From: a virus
Strand: one strand, 5' to 3'
Virus record (IMG/VR): IMGVR_UViG_3300031576_000001
Coordinates: 124,001-188,000 of that record
DNA: 64,000 nt
Made by a program: the position numbers and the translations under genes. Shown here piece after piece: positions 4,835 through 62,066 of the stretch. The stretch's first letter is position 1. Every line of letters begins with the position of its first letter. The notes beneath the pieces are model-generated. The model was not told the origin of the DNA. It made no database searches and saw only the letters and a list, made by a program, of their open reading frames with translations.

Positions 4835-5728
4835 ATGAAAACACTAAATAGCTCGATTCTTGACTCCATTCTCGCCCAAGGTGCGAACCTCGGTATCGTA
4901 GAGGAGACCTTGGTTATCCAGGGTCTTACGCTGGTTCTGCGTAGCCTACGCCCCTCGGAGCACCAAGCAGCGGCACTGGCTCTCAAAGAGGTAGACGAGA
5001 ACGACTACCTCTACGAGCACATGCTGGAATACGTCTCCCGGTCCATCGTCGCCGTCAACGGTACGGACCTTCGCGGCGTGGTCACCATCGCTACCGAAGA
5101 GGAGGACGACAAGGGCAACCTACGCAAGGTCAAGCGTGAGCTACATGCCTACCTCAGAACCCACCTTGTCAGCACTTGGGGCAGAGAGGCGCTGACTACG
5201 TGCTACAGGAAGCTCCTAGAGGTCTTTGACCACGCTGAGGAAGAGTCCAAGAAGGGCGTGGTCTTCCACATACCGGACGAGTCTGGCGACGAGAAGATCC
5301 GCAGGCTTCTCACGGAGCTACGTGAGGCTACCCAGGAGGTGCCCCACGACCTAGCCAGGCGGCTCCTAGAGGAGCACGGGTTCTACCTGGGCGCTGACAA
5401 GGAAGAGGTTGAGAATGTCGAGGCTAAGCTAGCCTCCCTGTCACCCACAGAGGAAGCCCCTGCGCCGGTAGCTGAGCCTGTAGCCCGTGTCCCTGTGTAC
5501 GCTGCTACGCCCGCGGTCAGCCCTGGTCCTCCTACGGACGACGAGAAGGTGACTTCAACCAGGGCACAAGAGGCGGCTGACCTGGAGTCTCTTCCCGGTG
5601 ACCTACCCTCTCCCGGCAAGTCGGGCACCCCTGTGGTGGCACGTCAGGCGCCCCGTAGCATCGTCGGGCTAGACGCCCCTCCAAAGGGGGGGATCAACCC
5701 CAGGTTCGCTAGTCCGAGGCGTGCGTGA
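4835..5728 (+). CDS. Tail assembly chaperone-like protein 1
   Basis: 297 residues between the tube candidate and the tape measure, the usual place of tail assembly chaperones, which bind the tape measure before the tube polymerises. Residues ~1-180 are helical and charged. The segment LVLRSLRPSEHQAA (~34-47) followed by DYLYEHMLEYVSRSI resembles VVYKSLNHHEYERL...DFYVDFLAQSTY in the next gene, suggesting the two are paralogous. The C-terminal ~110 residues are Pro/Ala/Glu-rich and look disordered. The stop overlaps the next start as GTGA (5725-5728), indicating translational coupling rather than the -1 frameshift used by many siphophages. Function is inferred from synteny. Confidence 0.6.
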   Translation: MKTLNSSILDSILAQGANLGIVEETLVIQGLTLVLRSLRPSEHQAAALALKEVDENDYLYEHMLEYVSRSIVAVNGTDLRGVVTIATEEEDDKGNLRKVKRELHAYLRTHLVSTWGREALTTCYRKLLEVFDHAEEESKKGVVFHIPDESGDEKIRRLLTELREATQEVPHDLARRLLEEHGFYLGADKEEVENVEAKLASLSPTEEAPAPVAEPVARVPVYAATPAVSPGPPTDDEKVTSTRAQEAADLESLPGDLPSPGKSGTPVVARQAPRSIVGLDAPPKGGINPRFASPRRA

Positions 5729-7011
5729 CAAGTGCTGCCTCTGTCAAAGAGGCATATGAGCGTGAACAAGAAAAGCTACGACACGAAGGCAACCTAGAGG
5801 ATGACGACAGTTCGTTTCCTCTCCCCCAGGAGCCCGAGGTGGACCCCCGGGTCTACAAAAGTGTTGAGCCGCTCTTGTTCCGTGGCTTTCTTGCGTTGCC
5901 TGCCACGCTGGGCGATAACCTACGGGTCGTCTACAAGAGCCTCAACCACCATGAGTATGAGCGCCTACAGCTAACCCATGGGTCAAGGGACACTGACTTT
6001 TACGTAGACTTCCTGGCGCAGTCCACGTACCTCTTGGGGGGTCAGAACGTACTCTCTTGGGAGCACCGTGAGAAGGTCAAGCGGTTTTATGGGGAGGTGC
6101 CCCCTCCATTGCGTAACCGGATCTTGACCACGCTCTCTGAGTTGAACCGGCAGGCCAGTGACGGGGTGCGGCTCGTCGAGGCGTACGCCATGGAGACCCT
6201 CTCTCGGCTACGGTGGGTTCAATTGTACGGTCTGGACCTCACGTCAACGGCGGTAACGGGGGTAGAGGGCTCTTCCTTGCTGGGGTACAACTGGGGTCAG
6301 CTTCTCTGGCGGGCATTGAACCGGTACCAGGACACCCGAGAGGACATGGACAGGCATTGGGAGAACGCCAAATTCATCGGGGGGTGCTTTGCAGGCAAGG
6401 GTATCAACAAGGTCCATAACCAGGACCGGCGCCGCAAGCGCGAAGAGATTGAGAACCGTATCGCGCGGAAGGACCAAATCTTGCGTGAGGTTGTGCTACT
6501 TGAGAAGAGCCCTGAGAGGCGTGTCATGCGGGACGGGCACGTAGTCAAGTCAGCTCAAACGACCGAGGAGCTAGCCACCCAGCTTGAGCAGTCACTAAAG
6601 GGTGAGGAGGACTTTCACGACCGGGTTGTACGGGCTGTCGAAGAGTACCACGCCAAGGTCAGGGTTGACCGTGAGGCTGAGCTACAGCGGCTCTATGACG
6701 AGGCTGCCAGCAAGGCACAGGGTCAAGGGCTCACGGGCATTGTGGACCGTAAGGGTCTCTCCCGCGAAGAGGTTGAGCAGCGTATCGCCCGGACGAGGGC
6801 GATCATGGCTCAAGGAACGGCACAGAGAATGGTACGCCCCCCGCCGCCTAGTGAGAACCCCTACGAGCGTTTCCGTCAAGCGCCCGAGCAAAGCGAGCAA
6901 AGCGAGCAAAGCGAGCAAAGCGAGCAAAGCGAGCCTGGTAGCCCCAAGGGTGAGGTTCGTCCTTTGCCCCCTCTTAGGTCAAGATTATGGCAAAGGACAC
7001 TGAGGTTCTGA
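5725..7011 (+). CDS. Tail assembly chaperone-like protein 2
   Basis: 428 residues, GTG start overlapping the previous stop by four bases. The N-terminal half carries the segment VVYKSLNHHEYERLQL and a helical domain resembling the preceding gene product. A basic motif NQDRRRKREEIENRIARK (~233-250) and long charged helices follow. Near the C-terminus the DNA holds about five tandem copies of a 9-base unit, GAGCAAAGC (6887-6931), encoding repeated Glu-Gln-Ser. The last 25 bases overlap the tape measure start. Position and similarity to the neighbour suggest tape-measure chaperoning. A structural role at the tail initiator cannot be ruled out. Confidence 0.55.
   Translation: MTSAASVKEAYEREQEKLRHEGNLEDDDSSFPLPQEPEVDPRVYKSVEPLLFRGFLALPATLGDNLRVVYKSLNHHEYERLQLTHGSRDTDFYVDFLAQSTYLLGGQNVLSWEHREKVKRFYGEVPPPLRNRILTTLSELNRQASDGVRLVEAYAMETLSRLRWVQLYGLDLTSTAVTGVEGSSLLGYNWGQLLWRALNRYQDTREDMDRHWENAKFIGGCFAGKGINKVHNQDRRRKREEIENRIARKDQILREVVLLEKSPERRVMRDGHVVKSAQTTEELATQLEQSLKGEEDFHDRVVRAVEEYHAKVRVDREAELQRLYDEAASKAQGQGLTGIVDRKGLSREEVEQRIARTRAIMAQGTAQRMVRPPPPSENPYERFRQAPEQSEQSEQSEQSEQSEPGSPKGEVRPLPPLRSRLWQRTLRF
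6887..6931 (+). repeat. 9-bp tandem repeat, about five copies
   Basis: Tandem GAGCAAAGC units, in frame, encode five Glu-Gln-Ser triplets in the C-terminal linker of the second chaperone-like protein. Such a tract can gain or lose units by replication slippage without shifting the frame, so copy number may vary between isolates. Confidence 0.9.
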
Positions 7012-52000: not shown

Positions 52001-53809
52001 GGCGTCAAGGTCAAGTGGAACCCTGTCCTTGGACGGTGGGGTCTGGCGGTCTCTCTTGTGTGGTCCGGTCACGGGGCGGCTCAACTTTACCAGACCGGGT
52101 GGAATGTCAGGTCTCTTCTCGACGAGCCGGCAACAACCCTTGGGGTGGGTGTCCGGGTAGGTCGCGACTTCGGTTTGACTGTGGGAACTGCGTACCGCCA
52201 GCCTGGAATGCGCTTCTTGACGCAGAGGCTCACCCCCCTCTTTGGTCTCACGGCGCCAGACTTTGCATCTAGCTTGCCCCAGGTTATCGCGGATACCGTA
52301 ACCTTGGTCAACTCCTCTCAAAACGCCAAGGTGGGCGACCTCTTTGCAGTTGCAGGGAGAGGGCCAGGGGGCACAGATATTCGCAGAACCGCCACCCTTT
52401 TCGGGGGCGCGGCGCTGGACAATGCCAGCGTGGACATGCCGTGGAATGACGCAACGAACGCCATTGATGTGGCAGTGGGTGATTATGACGCTGTGCCCCC
52501 GGACGGAACCTTTACTGTTGTGGGACGCCTCGCTCAGTACAATTTGCTGTTCAACGAAGGCGCTGGCGTTACCTATACCGCGACAAGTCTTACGGATACT
52601 GATGTCTTCCCAGGGTTCATTACCATGGGAGTGCAACCAGGGGACCGTGTTTACGTGGGCGGTAACGCTTTGGTCTACGTGCTGTCCGTGGCGCCCACCG
52701 TGCTCACCACAACACCCTTTGGGGTGCTCCCCCCCGCAGGCACGCACTACACGGTCACACGTCCCTCCTCTTACCTCTACAACCTGAAGTCCTCGCTAAG
52801 CACAATCTTGCTCACGGGTGACGTGGATGCCGCTACCCAGCGCACCCCCCTCTTGGAGTCTACCGGGGGACACACCCTGGAATTCCTACCCAGAGAGGAC
52901 GTGTTCCTGATTACGCTTGGGTACGGCACGCCTTGTGTAGAGGTAGACGGAGCCGAAGGCGTCGCTCTAAGTAACCTCACCCTCGGGGGTAGCCAGGACA
53001 TCACGGTCAAAGTAGCTCAACACCCCTGGCTTGCTCAGTCCGGGCTTGCCGTGGGCTGCGTTGACTCCGGCTCCCCCCTCTACCCCAAGAGACCTTCTCT
53101 GGCTTTCAGGTTCCCCGTGCCTAGAGAAGCCCCCGTGACGCTAAGCAATGTGGTAAGCCGCACCAAAATGCGGTACAAGGGAGTCTTAGCCATGGGCGCC
53201 ACCCTCTACCTCATTGACCTTTACAACGACGAGATCAATGCAGCCCTGTCGGACAGCGCCGCTGCCCTGACCAGCAAAGAGGTCACCGGGAACTACGTCA
53301 TCCCCTACGGGCTCTCCCTACCCCTCTTGGCGCCCCCTACAAGCCGAGCCAACTTGCTCTTGCAGAAGCATCAAGGGCTCCTGGCCATGCACCCTGGCTT
53401 TACGAACCAAGCCTACGATGACTGCCTGGACGCCAACGGCTTTGACCTGACCTACCCCTTCACCCTCGGCTCTTTCGGGGAGCGGGGCTCTATCAAGTTC
53501 AACACGGCGCAAACCGTCATGGTGCCGCTGGCGTTCGCGCCAGCCCAGGTCGTTCTCAACTTCGAGCCGTACACGTACAGCGACAGTGACAACGCGACGG
53601 GCTTGTACCAGCGAACCTACCAAGAGGTTGCACCCTCGGTCTTTACTGCCACGGCGAGCTTCAACAATGGGGCTACCTTCGTTAGCCTCTTGGCAGGCGG
53701 TTTGGAGAGCATCCCCCTGGCAGACCAAGGAAACCAGTTCATTCTGAGGCTGACACTGGCGTTCCCTGGTCCTCACGTCGGGCTTGCAGGTTGGTCCTTG
53801 CTATACTAA
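46097..53809 (+). CDS. Giant tail fibre/adhesin with beta-helix and propeller-like repeats
   Basis: 2570 residues. At about 470-530 a pectate-lyase-type beta-helix start is visible: LQEAVKAAILDGYGEVHLRR followed by GEYRLTSTVTVPPGVKITGEG. From ~575 on, a WNP/WNG...W.V motif recurs: IVWNPVRRVWGVTW, VTWTGEDWMVVSP, SLWNGRDWVVFFPG, IIWDGKQFQIFVV, LAWNGDRYFVAAA and VKWNPVLGRWGLA. These resemble blades of a beta-propeller. A second helix-like stretch lies near 2250-2320. Such architecture fits a receptor-binding or glycan-degrading fibre; no catalytic residues can be named. It ends 14 bases before connector protein B. Confidence 0.68.
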   Translation: MSATHTPTTTETNLTVPEREALRHADLFSQEKALTLGGNEPFTTGVSQTFADHLSPTPTEEPGKGLGTFTKVNLPAEVASWYGPTQPTQGTEGRALNISTWQDLTQTFGLSVLPGDVLLVKAKSGSTTDNAYAVGTVSALTGTTLTLTNIVNPSNVGSEDELDPAPLEVGWSYIVIRPNAKRLFALPGSGPLGSEQAFLFVDSSAPHTVAAPRLDGIEGARITKIVPPQLGTGDRADSVYDFGARTGLDKLGYRVVLYPDNGAGAPDLTKPITSTTPVLDSTKPAADQRMTVDYHAGVVRFAIPPVTGSEVKPSALCVEPATGRLRLYAVYWASQPTVAPYVEGAPKELYHVRSDEYDAKAAGFVRYDAAREAWLLGATDTGEELYVQALTGTGVTYFGVQDSTTPLSTERYFAYTQGDNAWKFKRQPLTEPVTDPATSMDLVVADKTAFTVGAGANPPQNPGGDYNPSGLVGYRDPTTKLQEAVKAAILDGYGEVHLRRGEYRLTSTVTVPPGVKITGEGAATRVVSKPDGAGDAHALFKFGANTPWGVWDADYPLSGSYTPPSVTLDPTARIEGYDIVWNPVRRVWGVTWADSVANEVYFREVDLQGQWSSQTLTVATLPLFTRFTAHALAPHHTTGHYPRMVHVEGTDEYVVVYVRDTGAGPESVIETVKRLAGAFSLKFPSTTVTGDYANNSTPSLASSGSEVRLAFSSFASDYSTVSVQTASYDVGTGLLTPVDTTGDRDANRIITSVDIAAKNDSTYAVVWSERQGLLVTSVCGTTVSSNVVTVGGIIVLLLLPGMRFLCHDNLASVDNGRSGVIVGVAGLNVTVAFDDGDQFFHSNTAGFNFSAAPLSTIYAATSTDMAGGSTLLVVVAGGEITSFYSRDEREPDFVRICRGGDGWLIVYQLFDTVARLAGDTMRNLDDGFNTVFYDSSATYPPDGDVPLASLSVHREYLSTCFALLGDNFTLTGPTPSDRTGLNPTSLSDFPAMGADTHRTGRVLGGRKPIRVPWANSVLNTSRPELEVSARNYCHAWNLVDDKVPSLLPDVTWTGEDWMVVSPTMAGIWSDTGVISNDAGTEILTDESFIFGTGSSPTSNNDGSFLPLTVTPFSDAVYFPVTGETVLITGVRSEHVIELASIPVAPVGIPGSQKEWCLVNGSTTLGLSGGMPNLGFRVSTKGEVLTTSSYLTFAIPESVSTSRPRSQEVLNRSLWGDATFSTRKYGDTSLSWNDQVSTSKLAADLTVQGVTLGAPKPTSEQARLESPLCAIAWGENTYGLVDRITGGIGGGRVNKLNFYRQSFGRWNSSLESMTLTGGAATLSQESFEHVYTRHGWVTSAQVGWSTDGYRTFFPHFTARFLKGLMNTGSLFDLASGDPARDTDWFVDLSAMVADQEGGHGVRVRGTPFALTPTRDPTDNFLGIANVPGVGLTNLNTMQPKSLWNGRDWVVFFPGVLVNAQPANAISIEKMMHHRGVISMVVFPGEGLEMDGALVGDELTNPAALATNLRSAKVVATGHITCGAYNLSMNREVVLLDVAYSGKTYCVVWSMGLQTTDPSTVSTAFTGANGGNLIGYTLFHDSTGTTTAFGNVVSGSISAPDTFDPGGGVTHLLELDSTIPGLTVDNQQRKARFLSPKIIWDGKQFQIFVVHRDDNYGALATDHGFMKQVAVAEDGSGHTLQMRNAANRYVPVAGYGTARVLGQFTIDPYLKPAGAKLVLRLNLTTSGPFGEYGGVVLPGDTLVITKVTDLLGTLEEFKLAGVYTVTDYDAQNGYVSLSADFDSTLAGPSYLAYGYLLSGGMAAKRDAPSGALTNAGQNYLQTVVSTEPTSTLQNMVRIWDTAYNEENGEYTLLVEAEGDGGFFLGLLAFSRSTGSVVREVELAGIVGPVTYLDASLAWNGDRYFVAAAKKDAIAGESVDTYLVSRDFMVEEANAPAYVPTDFVGNTGRKMPGPGYGAYSAASNLPLASFRGVKVKWNPVLGRWGLAVSLVWSGHGAAQLYQTGWNVRSLLDEPATTLGVGVRVGRDFGLTVGTAYRQPGMRFLTQRLTPLFGLTAPDFASSLPQVIADTVTLVNSSQNAKVGDLFAVAGRGPGGTDIRRTATLFGGAALDNASVDMPWNDATNAIDVAVGDYDAVPPDGTFTVVGRLAQYNLLFNEGAGVTYTATSLTDTDVFPGFITMGVQPGDRVYVGGNALVYVLSVAPTVLTTTPFGVLPPAGTHYTVTRPSSYLYNLKSSLSTILLTGDVDAATQRTPLLESTGGHTLEFLPREDVFLITLGYGTPCVEVDGAEGVALSNLTLGGSQDITVKVAQHPWLAQSGLAVGCVDSGSPLYPKRPSLAFRFPVPREAPVTLSNVVSRTKMRYKGVLAMGATLYLIDLYNDEINAALSDSAAALTSKEVTGNYVIPYGLSLPLLAPPTSRANLLLQKHQGLLAMHPGFTNQAYDDCLDANGFDLTYPFTLGSFGERGSIKFNTAQTVMVPLAFAPAQVVLNFEPYTYSDSDNATGLYQRTYQEVAPSVFTATASFNNGATFVSLLAGGLESIPLADQGNQFILRLTLAFPGPHVGLAGWSLLY

Positions 53810-58912: not shown

Positions 58913-59299
58913 CTAGGTAGGCTCACCAAGAGGGTTGCGTTCGTTGTAGAGCCGGCAAGCGGTCTCGTGGGTACAGGGGAGACGTTGCCACCAAAGAACC
59001 CCCTTGTCGGGCACGCTGGTGTACCCCCAGAAGGTGTTCTCTCCCTCGTAGGGGACGGCGGGTACAAGCCAGCCGATCTGGTCACCCTCCCCGCTAGCGT
59101 AGGGGCTACGCCAGCCGGGGTCGTGGCTCTTGGCTTGGGCTTTCTCAGCGCAGAGCGCGCAGAAGAGGTCCGTGTAGTTTGCGCAAGTGTTGTGCTCACG
59201 CCACAGGCGGACGTCCCTCGCGCCGCACCCGTCGCAGGCGTAAGCCTGGGGTGTCGCCGGGTTCTGGTAGCTGAAGTCTCGGAAGTTGCGTTCTGGCAT
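58913..59299 (-). CDS. Hypothetical protein with zinc ribbon, 128 aa
   Basis: ATG 59299 is chosen; the upstream TTG in the same frame overlaps the preceding gene. Cys pairs CDGCGARDV (~23-31) and FCALCAEKAQ (~46-55) form a treble-clef or ribbon-type zinc site. The rest is rich in Trp, Gly and Tyr (GWLVPAVPYEGENTFWGYTS), with CTHETACRL near the C-terminus. Metal or nucleic acid binding is likely, function unknown. It ends at the boundary of repeat copy 4. Confidence 0.6.
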   Translation of the reverse strand: MPERNFRDFSYQNPATPQAYACDGCGARDVRLWREHNTCANYTDLFCALCAEKAQAKSHDPGWRSPYASGEGDQIGWLVPAVPYEGENTFWGYTSVPDKGVLWWQRLPCTHETACRLYNERNPLGEPT

Positions 59300-59768
59300 A
59301 GCCCTCAACTACACCGAGGATCTCTTGGGCTGCCGTGATGAGGTCTGAGGTGAGACCTACCCGGGGGTCGGTTTGCAGGAAGTTAGGACTACCTACAAAG
59401 AGGGGTAGGTCATCAATCACCACGTAGGTTTGGCATGGCGTAAGGTGAGCTTGAAGGAACCTGCGGATTTCCTGGGCCTTATTGGGTGTACCTGTGCGTG
59501 GGGTAACGTGGGCTAGTTCCCCGAGAAAGCCGTGGGTTGAGAGCCACCCTTGACACTGCTCGACGGAGAACAGGGGGTACCAGTGAGAGGAGAGCACGAA
59601 CACTACGCCCTCTTGGACGAGACCATTAAGGAGGCACACCTTGGAGGTCATGAGGAGTCGCCCGGGGTAGAAGCTGTCCACGTCCCGCTGGCGACTTTGG
59701 CGGCAAAGGTGCTCCGTGGTGTTGAGCACACCGTCAAAATCCACGAGAACGAAGCGCGGTAGGGTCAT
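59196..59768 (-). CDS. HAD-family phosphatase-like protein (Swiss-Army-Knife RNA-repair HAD type)
   Basis: ATG 59768 with AAGGAG eight bases upstream. Motif I VLVDFDGVLNT gives Asp10 and Asp12, both intact. Motif II is VLSSHW (Ser60). A basic helix with KAQEIRRFL (Lys97, Arg102/103) follows, and motif IV is YVVIDD (Asp119/Asp120). The layout fits small HAD domains associated with RNA-repair enzymes, which act as phosphatases on RNA ends. The last ~35 residues look Arg/Pro-rich and overlap the next gene by 104 bases. One extra base would end it at about 59305. A second, degenerate copy is at 61403. Confidence 0.72.
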   Translation of the reverse strand: MTLPRFVLVDFDGVLNTTEHLCRQSRQRDVDSFYPGRLLMTSKVCLLNGLVQEGVVFVLSSHWYPLFSVEQCQGWLSTHGFLGELAHVTPRTGTPNKAQEIRRFLQAHLTPCQTYVVIDDLPLFVGSPNFLQTDPRVGLTSDLITAAQEILGVVEGYARTQLPRLQLPEPGDTPGLRLRRVRREGRPPVA

Positions 59769-59819
59769 GTGGGTTAGACTCCTTCTGTACACCCTCTGAG
59801 AGAGGAAAGGTTACACACG

Positions 59820-59987
59820 ATGATCCATCACATGACACATACCGACGTACCCCTACAGCTACGCCAGCGCACAGCCAAAGAGGCATGTACCAAGCTCAAA
59901 GAGAAGCTAAGTGATCCCACGCTGAGTCAGGCTCAGAGGCGGGTGCTACGGGCTCAGTTGACAAAGATCGAGGAATGGGGTAGCTAA
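59820..59987 (+). CDS. Small charged helical protein, 55 aa
   Basis: Frame of 55 codons with AGGAAAGG upstream. The sequence reads as two amphipathic helices rich in Lys, Arg, Gln and Leu (AKEACTKLKEKLSD; SQAQRRVLRAQLTKIEEWGS). It is divergent from the HAD gene 51 bases away. Its stop lies three bases before the ATG of the extended frame 59991. No family is recognised. It is short, but the codon use and ribosome site support it. Confidence 0.55.
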   Translation: MIHHMTHTDVPLQLRQRTAKEACTKLKEKLSDPTLSQAQRRVLRAQLTKIEEWGS

Positions 59988-60063
59988 ACTATGCCTGCGG
60001 TGATGCCTTCGGGCGTTGAGCACTGCCTCTCGTGCAAAAGGCGTGTCCTGCGTACCTCTACTG

Positions 60064-60122
60064 AGAGGGGGGTATATCTGGAACCCCCTCTGTCTGAGGC
60101 TCTTATACCTCAGACAGAGGGG
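60064..60122 (+). promoter_or_regulatory. Alternative RNA hairpins before the holin-like gene
   Basis: Three arms are visible. A: AGAGGGGG (60064-60071). B: CCCCCTCTGTCTGAGG (60084-60099). C: CCTCAGACAGAGGGG (60108-60122). B and C pair perfectly over 15 bp with an 8-base loop and bury GAGGGG, the ribosome site of ATG 60129. A and B can pair over 8 bp instead, freeing C. This is the layout of a translational switch. Confidence 0.7.
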
Positions 60123-60128
60123 AACACC

Positions 60129-60449
60129 ATGGAAGCAGCCTTTAGTATTTTCATGTCCTGGCAGGCGGTCTTTACCTGTCTCGTGGTAGCGGGTCTGACC
60201 TACGTGCTGCGTACCGCCGCCGAGGGTGCCGCCCCTGGGCTAGCGTCCGCCTCTTGGTGGACCAAGGCAGCGGTGCCGCTGGCGCCTCTGTGCAACGGGG
60301 CTCTCCTCGGGGTGGTCCCGGGCTACCCCTGGCCAGAGCAAGTGAGCACGCTGGCAGCCCGTATCTTCTTTGGGTTTGTCTGCGGGATGTTTTCCATGAT
60401 TGTCTACGCAAGGGCGCGTGACTTCATGAAGGGGCAACAAGGCGGCTGA
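60129..60449 (+). CDS. Small membrane protein, holin-like candidate, 106 aa
   Basis: ATG 60129 with GAGGGGAAC ahead. Three hydrophobic segments are visible: ~5-27 (FMSWQAVFTCLVVAGLTYVL), ~48-66 (AAVPLAPLCNGALLGVV) and ~78-98 (LAARIFFGFVCGMFSMIVYA). A basic tail (RARDFMKGQQGG) follows. The 'P..G..LG...' and 'G...G.FS...Y' pattern is seen in several phage holins, which permeabilise the inner membrane at lysis. The same frame opens at ATG 59991 (46 residues longer), giving a possible dual-start protein, as in some holin pairs. The strong hairpins upstream suggest timed translation. Function is inferred. Confidence 0.52.
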   Translation: MEAAFSIFMSWQAVFTCLVVAGLTYVLRTAAEGAAPGLASASWWTKAAVPLAPLCNGALLGVVPGYPWPEQVSTLAARIFFGFVCGMFSMIVYARARDFMKGQQGG

Positions 60450-61061: not shown

Positions 61062-61448
61062 ATGACCACGATAGCTGAACGTGTTGCCAGTCGCGCCGCC
61101 GCCTCTCCGCAGAACGGAGTGCAGTGGGTACGTGATGAGATCCTCATTCAGAAGTGCTCTACGGGGAAGACACCTATCGTCGAGGTCGCGGCGTACTTGC
61201 ACAACATCATCAAGAGCAGCCAAGAGATACACAAGCTGCTTAGTGAGGCTACAAAGAATGCCCAGGATGCCGTGAGTGGTGGCGACACTATCACGGCTCA
61301 GGATTTGGAGAGGGCGATCTACAAAGAGGCTGTGCTGCCGGCGGGGGGTGAAGACCCTCTGGGCAAGCTGCTCGCCAAGGTGATTGCCCATGGGGACTAC
61401 GTTTACTTACCCTTGGCTTTGGAAACGGGCGCAGTCCCCTTCTTGTGA
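61062..61448 (+). CDS. Hypothetical protein, 128 aa
   Basis: ATG 61062 is two bases after the previous stop. The protein is mostly helical and slightly basic: ERVASRAAASPQNGVQWVRD, then VEVAAYLHNIIKSSQEIHKL. No motif is recognised. It is convergent with the degenerate HAD gene, with an overlap of 46 bases. It is likely co-transcribed with the holin-like and anchored genes. Confidence 0.6.
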   Translation: MTTIAERVASRAAASPQNGVQWVRDEILIQKCSTGKTPIVEVAAYLHNIIKSSQEIHKLLSEATKNAQDAVSGGDTITAQDLERAIYKEAVLPAGGEDPLGKLLAKVIAHGDYVYLPLALETGAVPFL

Positions 61449-61996
61449 CTACGTGCCTTGACGGGTTTGAAGTGCTCAGGGGGTGGCTCCCTGGGTCGCT
61501 TGATCTTGGTGACGGGCTTAGCTGACGGGTCGAGGAGGTTGATTGCCTGGCAGAGGTTCTCTGAGCAAAGACCTAGCGCCGGGTTGACCTTGACGAGGCG
61601 GGGGGCGTAGTCAGGCATGAACTTGAAGACCTCTTCGCTGTCCAGGGCGACCCAAGAGGTTGCGGGGTGCTCAGCGAGGAACCTGCGGATCGTGGTGGCT
61701 TTGGCGGGCTCTAGCTTGTGATTGACCAGGGCAGACACTTCCCCAGTAAAGCCGTGGCTTTTCAGGTGCGTGTTTAGCTGCTCCACGTCATACCGTGCCC
61801 ACCACCGAGAGGTCACCACGACCTTACCCTTACCTACCAAGTAGTTCAGCCTGCGAACTAGAGGAGGGCAGAGGCGTTGAGCAGGTTGTCTCTTGAGCCC
61901 CTCTGGTGACAGCCTCTTGGCTAGGTTGCTCAGGTACACAGGGGTATTCAATACCCCATCCAGTTCTAGGAAGATGAACTTTACGGGCTCCGTCAT
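61403..61996 (-). CDS. Degenerate HAD-family paralog
   Basis: 197 residues, ATG 61996. It aligns along its length with the gene at 59196: FIFLELDGVLNTPVYL versus VLVDFDGVLNT, VVVTSRWWARYDVEQL versus VFVLSSHWYPLFSVEQ, HGFTGEV versus HGFLGEL, IRRFLAEH versus IRRFLQAH, and WVALDSEEVF versus YVVIDDLPLF. The nucleophile-position Asp of motif I is Glu (Glu11), and the second motif IV Asp is Ser (Ser120). In HAD enzymes the first Asp forms the phospho-intermediate, so catalysis is probably lost or altered. The C-terminus is a Lys/Pro-rich tail (KIKRPREPPPEH) that could bind nucleic acid. Confidence 0.72.
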   Translation of the reverse strand: MTEPVKFIFLELDGVLNTPVYLSNLAKRLSPEGLKRQPAQRLCPPLVRRLNYLVGKGKVVVTSRWWARYDVEQLNTHLKSHGFTGEVSALVNHKLEPAKATTIRRFLAEHPATSWVALDSEEVFKFMPDYAPRLVKVNPALGLCSENLCQAINLLDPSAKPVTKIKRPREPPPEHFKPVKARSHKKGTAPVSKAKGK

Positions 61997-62066
61997 GGTT
62001 TTCAGACTCAGAAAGTACACCGAGGTAGCCTCTTCGCCTGAGAGGGGGTAGCCTTAGCCTTTAGCC

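Follow-up and report, generated by a model that had tools for sequence, protein, structure and literature searches.

In phage T4, the hairpins of gene e, soc and I-TevI hide the Shine-Dalgarno (SD) sequence on longer transcripts, and the S holin gene of phage lambda combines upstream structure with a dual start. The two lambda starts are those of S105 and S107 (PMC10865782). Phage RNA can also act against host defence: solitary CRISPR repeats carried by phages serve as RNA anti-CRISPRs (Racrs), which trap Cas6 together with Cas7 in a dead-end complex (Camara-Wilpert 2023, PMC10651486), and such repeat copies are known from both phages and plasmids. Finally, viruses carry mini-CRISPR arrays (PMC11656645; PMC6858448), which act in virus-virus competition (PMC11656645).

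The locus described here lies in a 64-kb portion (the window) of a jumbo phage record of 322,633 bases, window position 60005 corresponding to record position 184005; coordinates refer to the window unless stated otherwise. A leader of 141 nt separates a 55-aa open reading frame (ORF; 59820-59987, +), which ends in TAA at 59985-59987, from the gene for a 106-aa small membrane protein, possibly a holin (60129-60449, +). The codon score of the 55-aa ORF is ambiguous, and family searches with it gave no match at a meaningful E-value. In the explanation we prefer, to which we assign a probability of about 45%, this leader is non-coding and carries an anti-CRISPR-like decoy together with a static translational brake on the holin-like gene.

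The membrane protein is encoded by a stretch with a coding-like codon score (60129-60446). Its product contains three hydrophobic stretches, and its structure model is helical with low confidence (pLDDT 61); no relatives were found in virus collections. The holin-like character that had been ascribed to the gene thus agrees with the hydrophobic stretches and with a match to PHROG 1299, although this match is too weak (E=0.02) for confirmation and no lysis family was found among the neighbouring proteins tested. Together these features point weakly to a possible holin-like small membrane protein. As in lambda S, a small membrane gene of the lysis type has a stem-loop beside its start, and a second in-frame ATG, at 60153, recalls the lambda dual start. 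The stem of the present phage, however, is much stronger and occludes the SD itself; the holin is unconfirmed, and dual products are not in evidence.

The 5' part of the leader holds a feature that the first-pass annotation had missed: positions 60002-60023 are the 3' half of a CRISPR repeat. Its identification began with the Rfam family CRISPR-DR33, whose consensus ends in ...GAUGCCGUuAGGCGUUgAGCAC and whose match to the leader is below the cut-off and differs in the loop; across the window, no Rfam family reached its gathering score. The complete mimic, designated copy D, spans 36 nt (59988-60023, +) directly 3' of the TAA of the 55-aa ORF. Its 3' 22 nt, GATGCCTTCGGGCGTTGAGCAC, recur without change in the 3' part of the 36-nt repeats of subtype I-B/MYXAN (Myxococcota, Acidobacteria and others), and comprise a Cas6-type hairpin, GAUGCC-UUCG-GGCGUU (60002-60017, +), also found in the bacterial repeats, plus an 8-nt crRNA-type handle, UUGAGCAC (60016-60023, +). 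The handle was placed by the type I Cas6 cutting rule and by the repeat/spacer boundary in arrays, according to which Cas6 would cut between 60015 and 60016. The isolated 36-mer has a competing fold; in the wider context the hairpin does form, being paired in the minimum free energy structure of 59985-60150. The 5' 14 nt are not significantly repeat-like, and the 5' half performs no better than shuffled sequence (P 0.65). The sequence immediately upstream showed no promoter-like site, and a search of the phage for HEARO/IscB guide RNA returned no match.

Bacterial counterparts were located with the 21-mer GATGCCTTCGGGCGTTGAGCA. When bacterial and archaeal genomes were searched, it turned up in 20 bacterial stretches. 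Most of these are true CRISPR arrays that repeat every ~70-75 nt; their 36-nt repeats, for instance GTGATCCCCGCTCCGATGCCTTCGGGCGTTGAGCAC, come from genomes whose titles name Myxococcota, Acidobacteria, Planctomyces and others. Bacteria differ from one another in the first half of the repeat, and it is the second half, consisting of hairpin and handle, that the phage copies. The cas genes beside the arrays (cas1_MYXAN, Cas5/DevS, Cas7/DevR and Cas8a1/Cmx1 in stretch L010; Cas6/Cmx6, Cas3 and Cmx8 in stretch L018) place the repeat in the MYXAN branch of subtype I-B. A search for a MYXAN-type Cas6 detected none in the phage. When 331 distinct spacers from bacterial and viral arrays with this repeat were compared with ~83 kb of phage DNA (the window and two other phage stretches), the best match was 16 nt, which is at chance level.

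The leader region shares short exact repeats with other parts of the phage record. Within this record, the 18-nt core GCCTTCGGGCGTTGAGCA occurs in four exact copies, all on the + strand, at record positions 5683 (copy A), 52742 (B), 52813 (C) and 184005 (D), with the 21-mer present in A, C and D. No version of the core with one to three mismatches was found in the record, and the reversed control gave 0. Copy B has TAA for GAT before the core, and the last base of copy C is G instead of C. Neither A nor D has another copy within 100 nt. Copies B and C lie at a distance of 71 nt, flanked by a sliding-clamp gene (DNA polymerase processivity factor) and an ATPase gene. This distance is the period of a true array, with one 35-nt spacer, and it equals the host array period; record positions 52719-52849, with two degenerate repeats around that spacer, thus look like a putative phage mini-array. 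Such an array could use host Cas proteins against rival phages, as known viral mini-arrays make plausible, in which case A and D would be decayed relics. We regard this explanation as unlikely, given that A and D lack an in-phase partner, that no significant resemblance to a repeat was seen in the 5' half of A, B or D (that of C is borderline, P 0.05), and that the first 20 nt of the B spacer have no exact match in IMG/VR. The pair likewise departs from virus-borne mini-arrays in its degenerate 5' halves, the changed last base of C and a spacer for which no target was found.

The surroundings of copy A are distinctive in another respect. This copy lies in a non-coding stretch (record ~5100-6000) among five hairpins, whose 5-6 bp stems are unlike one another and whose 7-nt purine loop, AG[AC]GAGA, is shared. 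On the strand of this stretch, 5 of 10 such words form stems, compared with 0 of 40 in the window, the B/C stretch or the opposite strand of the copy-A stretch. The stretch has the appearance of a structured phage RNA displaying the loop repeatedly.

By analogy with the Racrs, the four half-repeats are candidate decoys for the Cas6 of a presumed I-B system in the host. The element at 59988-60023 would mimic the Cas6-binding half of the I-B/MYXAN repeat; once transcribed by the phage, it would probably bind Cas6 of the host, possibly along with further proteins of Cascade, and pull them off the real crRNAs, while the three half-repeats elsewhere in the phage would raise the decoy dose. Like the Racrs and other solitary repeat units, the phage copies are unaccompanied, phage-borne repeats matching a bacterial system, and the exact stretch exceeds chance (21-22 identical nt; four occurrences of the core against none in the reversed control). 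Copy D also shares with them a non-coding position, between the ORF at 59820-59987 and the gene at 60129, and a preserved Cas6 hairpin. The differences are that the match is limited here to the 3' 22-24 nt, that four copies reside in one jumbo phage, two of them (B and C) in array spacing and only A and D outside any array, and that decoy activity is putative.

Existing software would treat copy D in two ways. SRUFinder counts a match as full when both its identity to a known CRISPR repeat and its coverage of that repeat are at least 90%; the best ungapped match of copy D is 29/36, with at most the 3' 24 nt exact (~67% coverage), so it falls into the 'partial' class and is not filed as a full solitary repeat unit, although it may work like one. 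In addition, the program masks confident ORFs ahead of its search, and a reading frame called from 59991 would therefore mask the copy altogether. Elements of this kind can thus be lost from view when reading frames are extended automatically. Four scattered copies of the Cas6 hairpin and handle alone, matching the little-studied I-B/MYXAN subtype, in one jumbo phage would reveal the part of the repeat that is sufficient. A bolder proposal is that the half-repeat acts together with the stem-loop further along the leader: cleavage of the phage message by host Cas6 at 60015/60016 would change how the rest of the leader folds, or how stable it is, and with it the output of the membrane-protein gene. 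The phage would then adjust a lysis-type gene according to whether host CRISPR-Cas is present, but we consider this highly improbable.

Similar half-repeats occur in other viruses. The sequence GATGCCNNNNGGCGTTGAGCAC was found in 23 IMG/VR stretches, some of which appear to be duplicates of one virus. Single or paired intergenic half-repeats are present, for example, in L029/L041, L033, L034, L039 and L048, and the copies within long ORFs (L037, L038/L047/L049 and L045) are likely due to chance. Contigs L039, L029/L041, L034 and L048 are candidates for RNA anti-CRISPRs or mini-arrays. Another contig classed as viral (L042, 13.5 kb) carries 54 copies of the repeat 3' half, that is, a full-size CRISPR array.

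The second component of the leader is a stem-loop at 60085-60122 (+), in which arm B (60085-60099) pairs with arm C (60108-60122) across an 8-nt loop. All 15 of 15 pairs are perfect, as the first-pass annotation had stated, and the stem by itself is predicted at -30.8 kcal/mol. It is the only perfect 15-bp stem with 3-60 nt between its arms in the 64-kb window, compared with 0.017 expected per Markov shuffle. For positions 59985-60150 the predicted folding energy is -70.7 kcal/mol (z = -4.3), a stability matched by 0 of 200 shuffles. Of 31 start regions compared in the window, that of 60129 has the most stable fold. An SD-like GAGGGG (60117-60122, +) lies inside arm C; in three fold windows it stays buried, with an unpaired probability of at most ~0.5% per base. 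The earlier proposal that the stem covers the ribosome site of ATG 60129 was therefore borne out, and the predicted stable fold, together with the rarity of the stem, supports occlusion of that site. The stem-loop would then act as a separate, static brake, holding translation of the membrane protein very low on transcripts that contain both arms. No matching stem-loop of 9 bp or longer adjoins any of the other three half-repeats. An intrinsic terminator at this stem was rejected, as no U run follows it and the terminator scan was empty there.

The brake has one evident difficulty, namely that with a -31 kcal/mol stem and nothing to open it the gene would hardly be expressed. The hairpins of gene e, soc and I-TevI share the burial of the SD on longer transcripts and suggest one kind of escape: read-through early transcripts would be silent, and late transcripts starting within the stem would be translated. 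The loop does contain TTATACC, but no late promoter was detected at the stem, no promoter-like site at the loop and no shared promoter motif upstream of other genes, making such control rather improbable. A shared phage promoter in the loop was also discarded: CCTCTT-type words are common across the whole window, and no motif is enriched. Alternatively, the stem could serve the stability or the RNase III processing of a polycistronic phage message and cover the SD incidentally. A perfect, GC-rich stem without a U tail would suit that role, and overlap with some gene start by position has a chance of ~5% by our own estimate; nevertheless, the stem takes in the SD precisely and has no equal in 64 kb, and we view a stability or processing role as doubtful.

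Arm B had also been proposed to alternate between two exclusive partners as part of a switch. Both pairings can form, the other being an 8-bp helix between arm A (60064-60071, +) and 60084-60091, but they are not balanced: at -16.3 kcal/mol, A-B is ~14 kcal/mol weaker than B-C, in contrast to the comparable stabilities of a two-state leader. When folding was followed at growing 3' ends, A-B was present until arm C was made and was then displaced; in the complete fold, arm A pairs with 60052-60059 in an upstream hairpin (60052-60059/60068-60075, +) that competes for it. A-B is thus possible solely as a folding intermediate.

The same switch invoked a leader frame from ATG 59991. This frame (59991-60128, +) is indeed open and in frame with both the upstream 55-aa ORF and the 60129 gene, although 46 open codons are unremarkable at the local base composition (~0.18 by chance, our own estimate). 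It begins with the CRISPR-repeat mimic, and its codon score of -0.067, which ranks at the 0.9th percentile among coding windows and at the 87th among non-coding frames, is not coding-like. A ribosome that translated it and melted B-C would simply produce an in-frame fusion of 152 aa instead of switching the start at 60129. The arms, the frame and the buried SD all exist, but control in which leader translation or A-B pairing opens B-C, starts 60129 and times lysis as an attenuator or dual start is not supported by these results, and the link to lysis timing depends on the unconfirmed holin; we judge such control very unlikely.

Searches of virus collections found no relatives for the 1454-aa tail-type protein or the sliding clamp of the phage and just two, both distant, for the clamp loader. 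Two opposite-strand genes, at 59196-59792 (-) and 61403-62020 (-), flank the membrane-protein gene cluster, and both carry a similar DGVLNT motif close to the start. The former matches Pfam HAD_SAK_2 (E 6e-17), a HAD domain of RNA-repair proteins.
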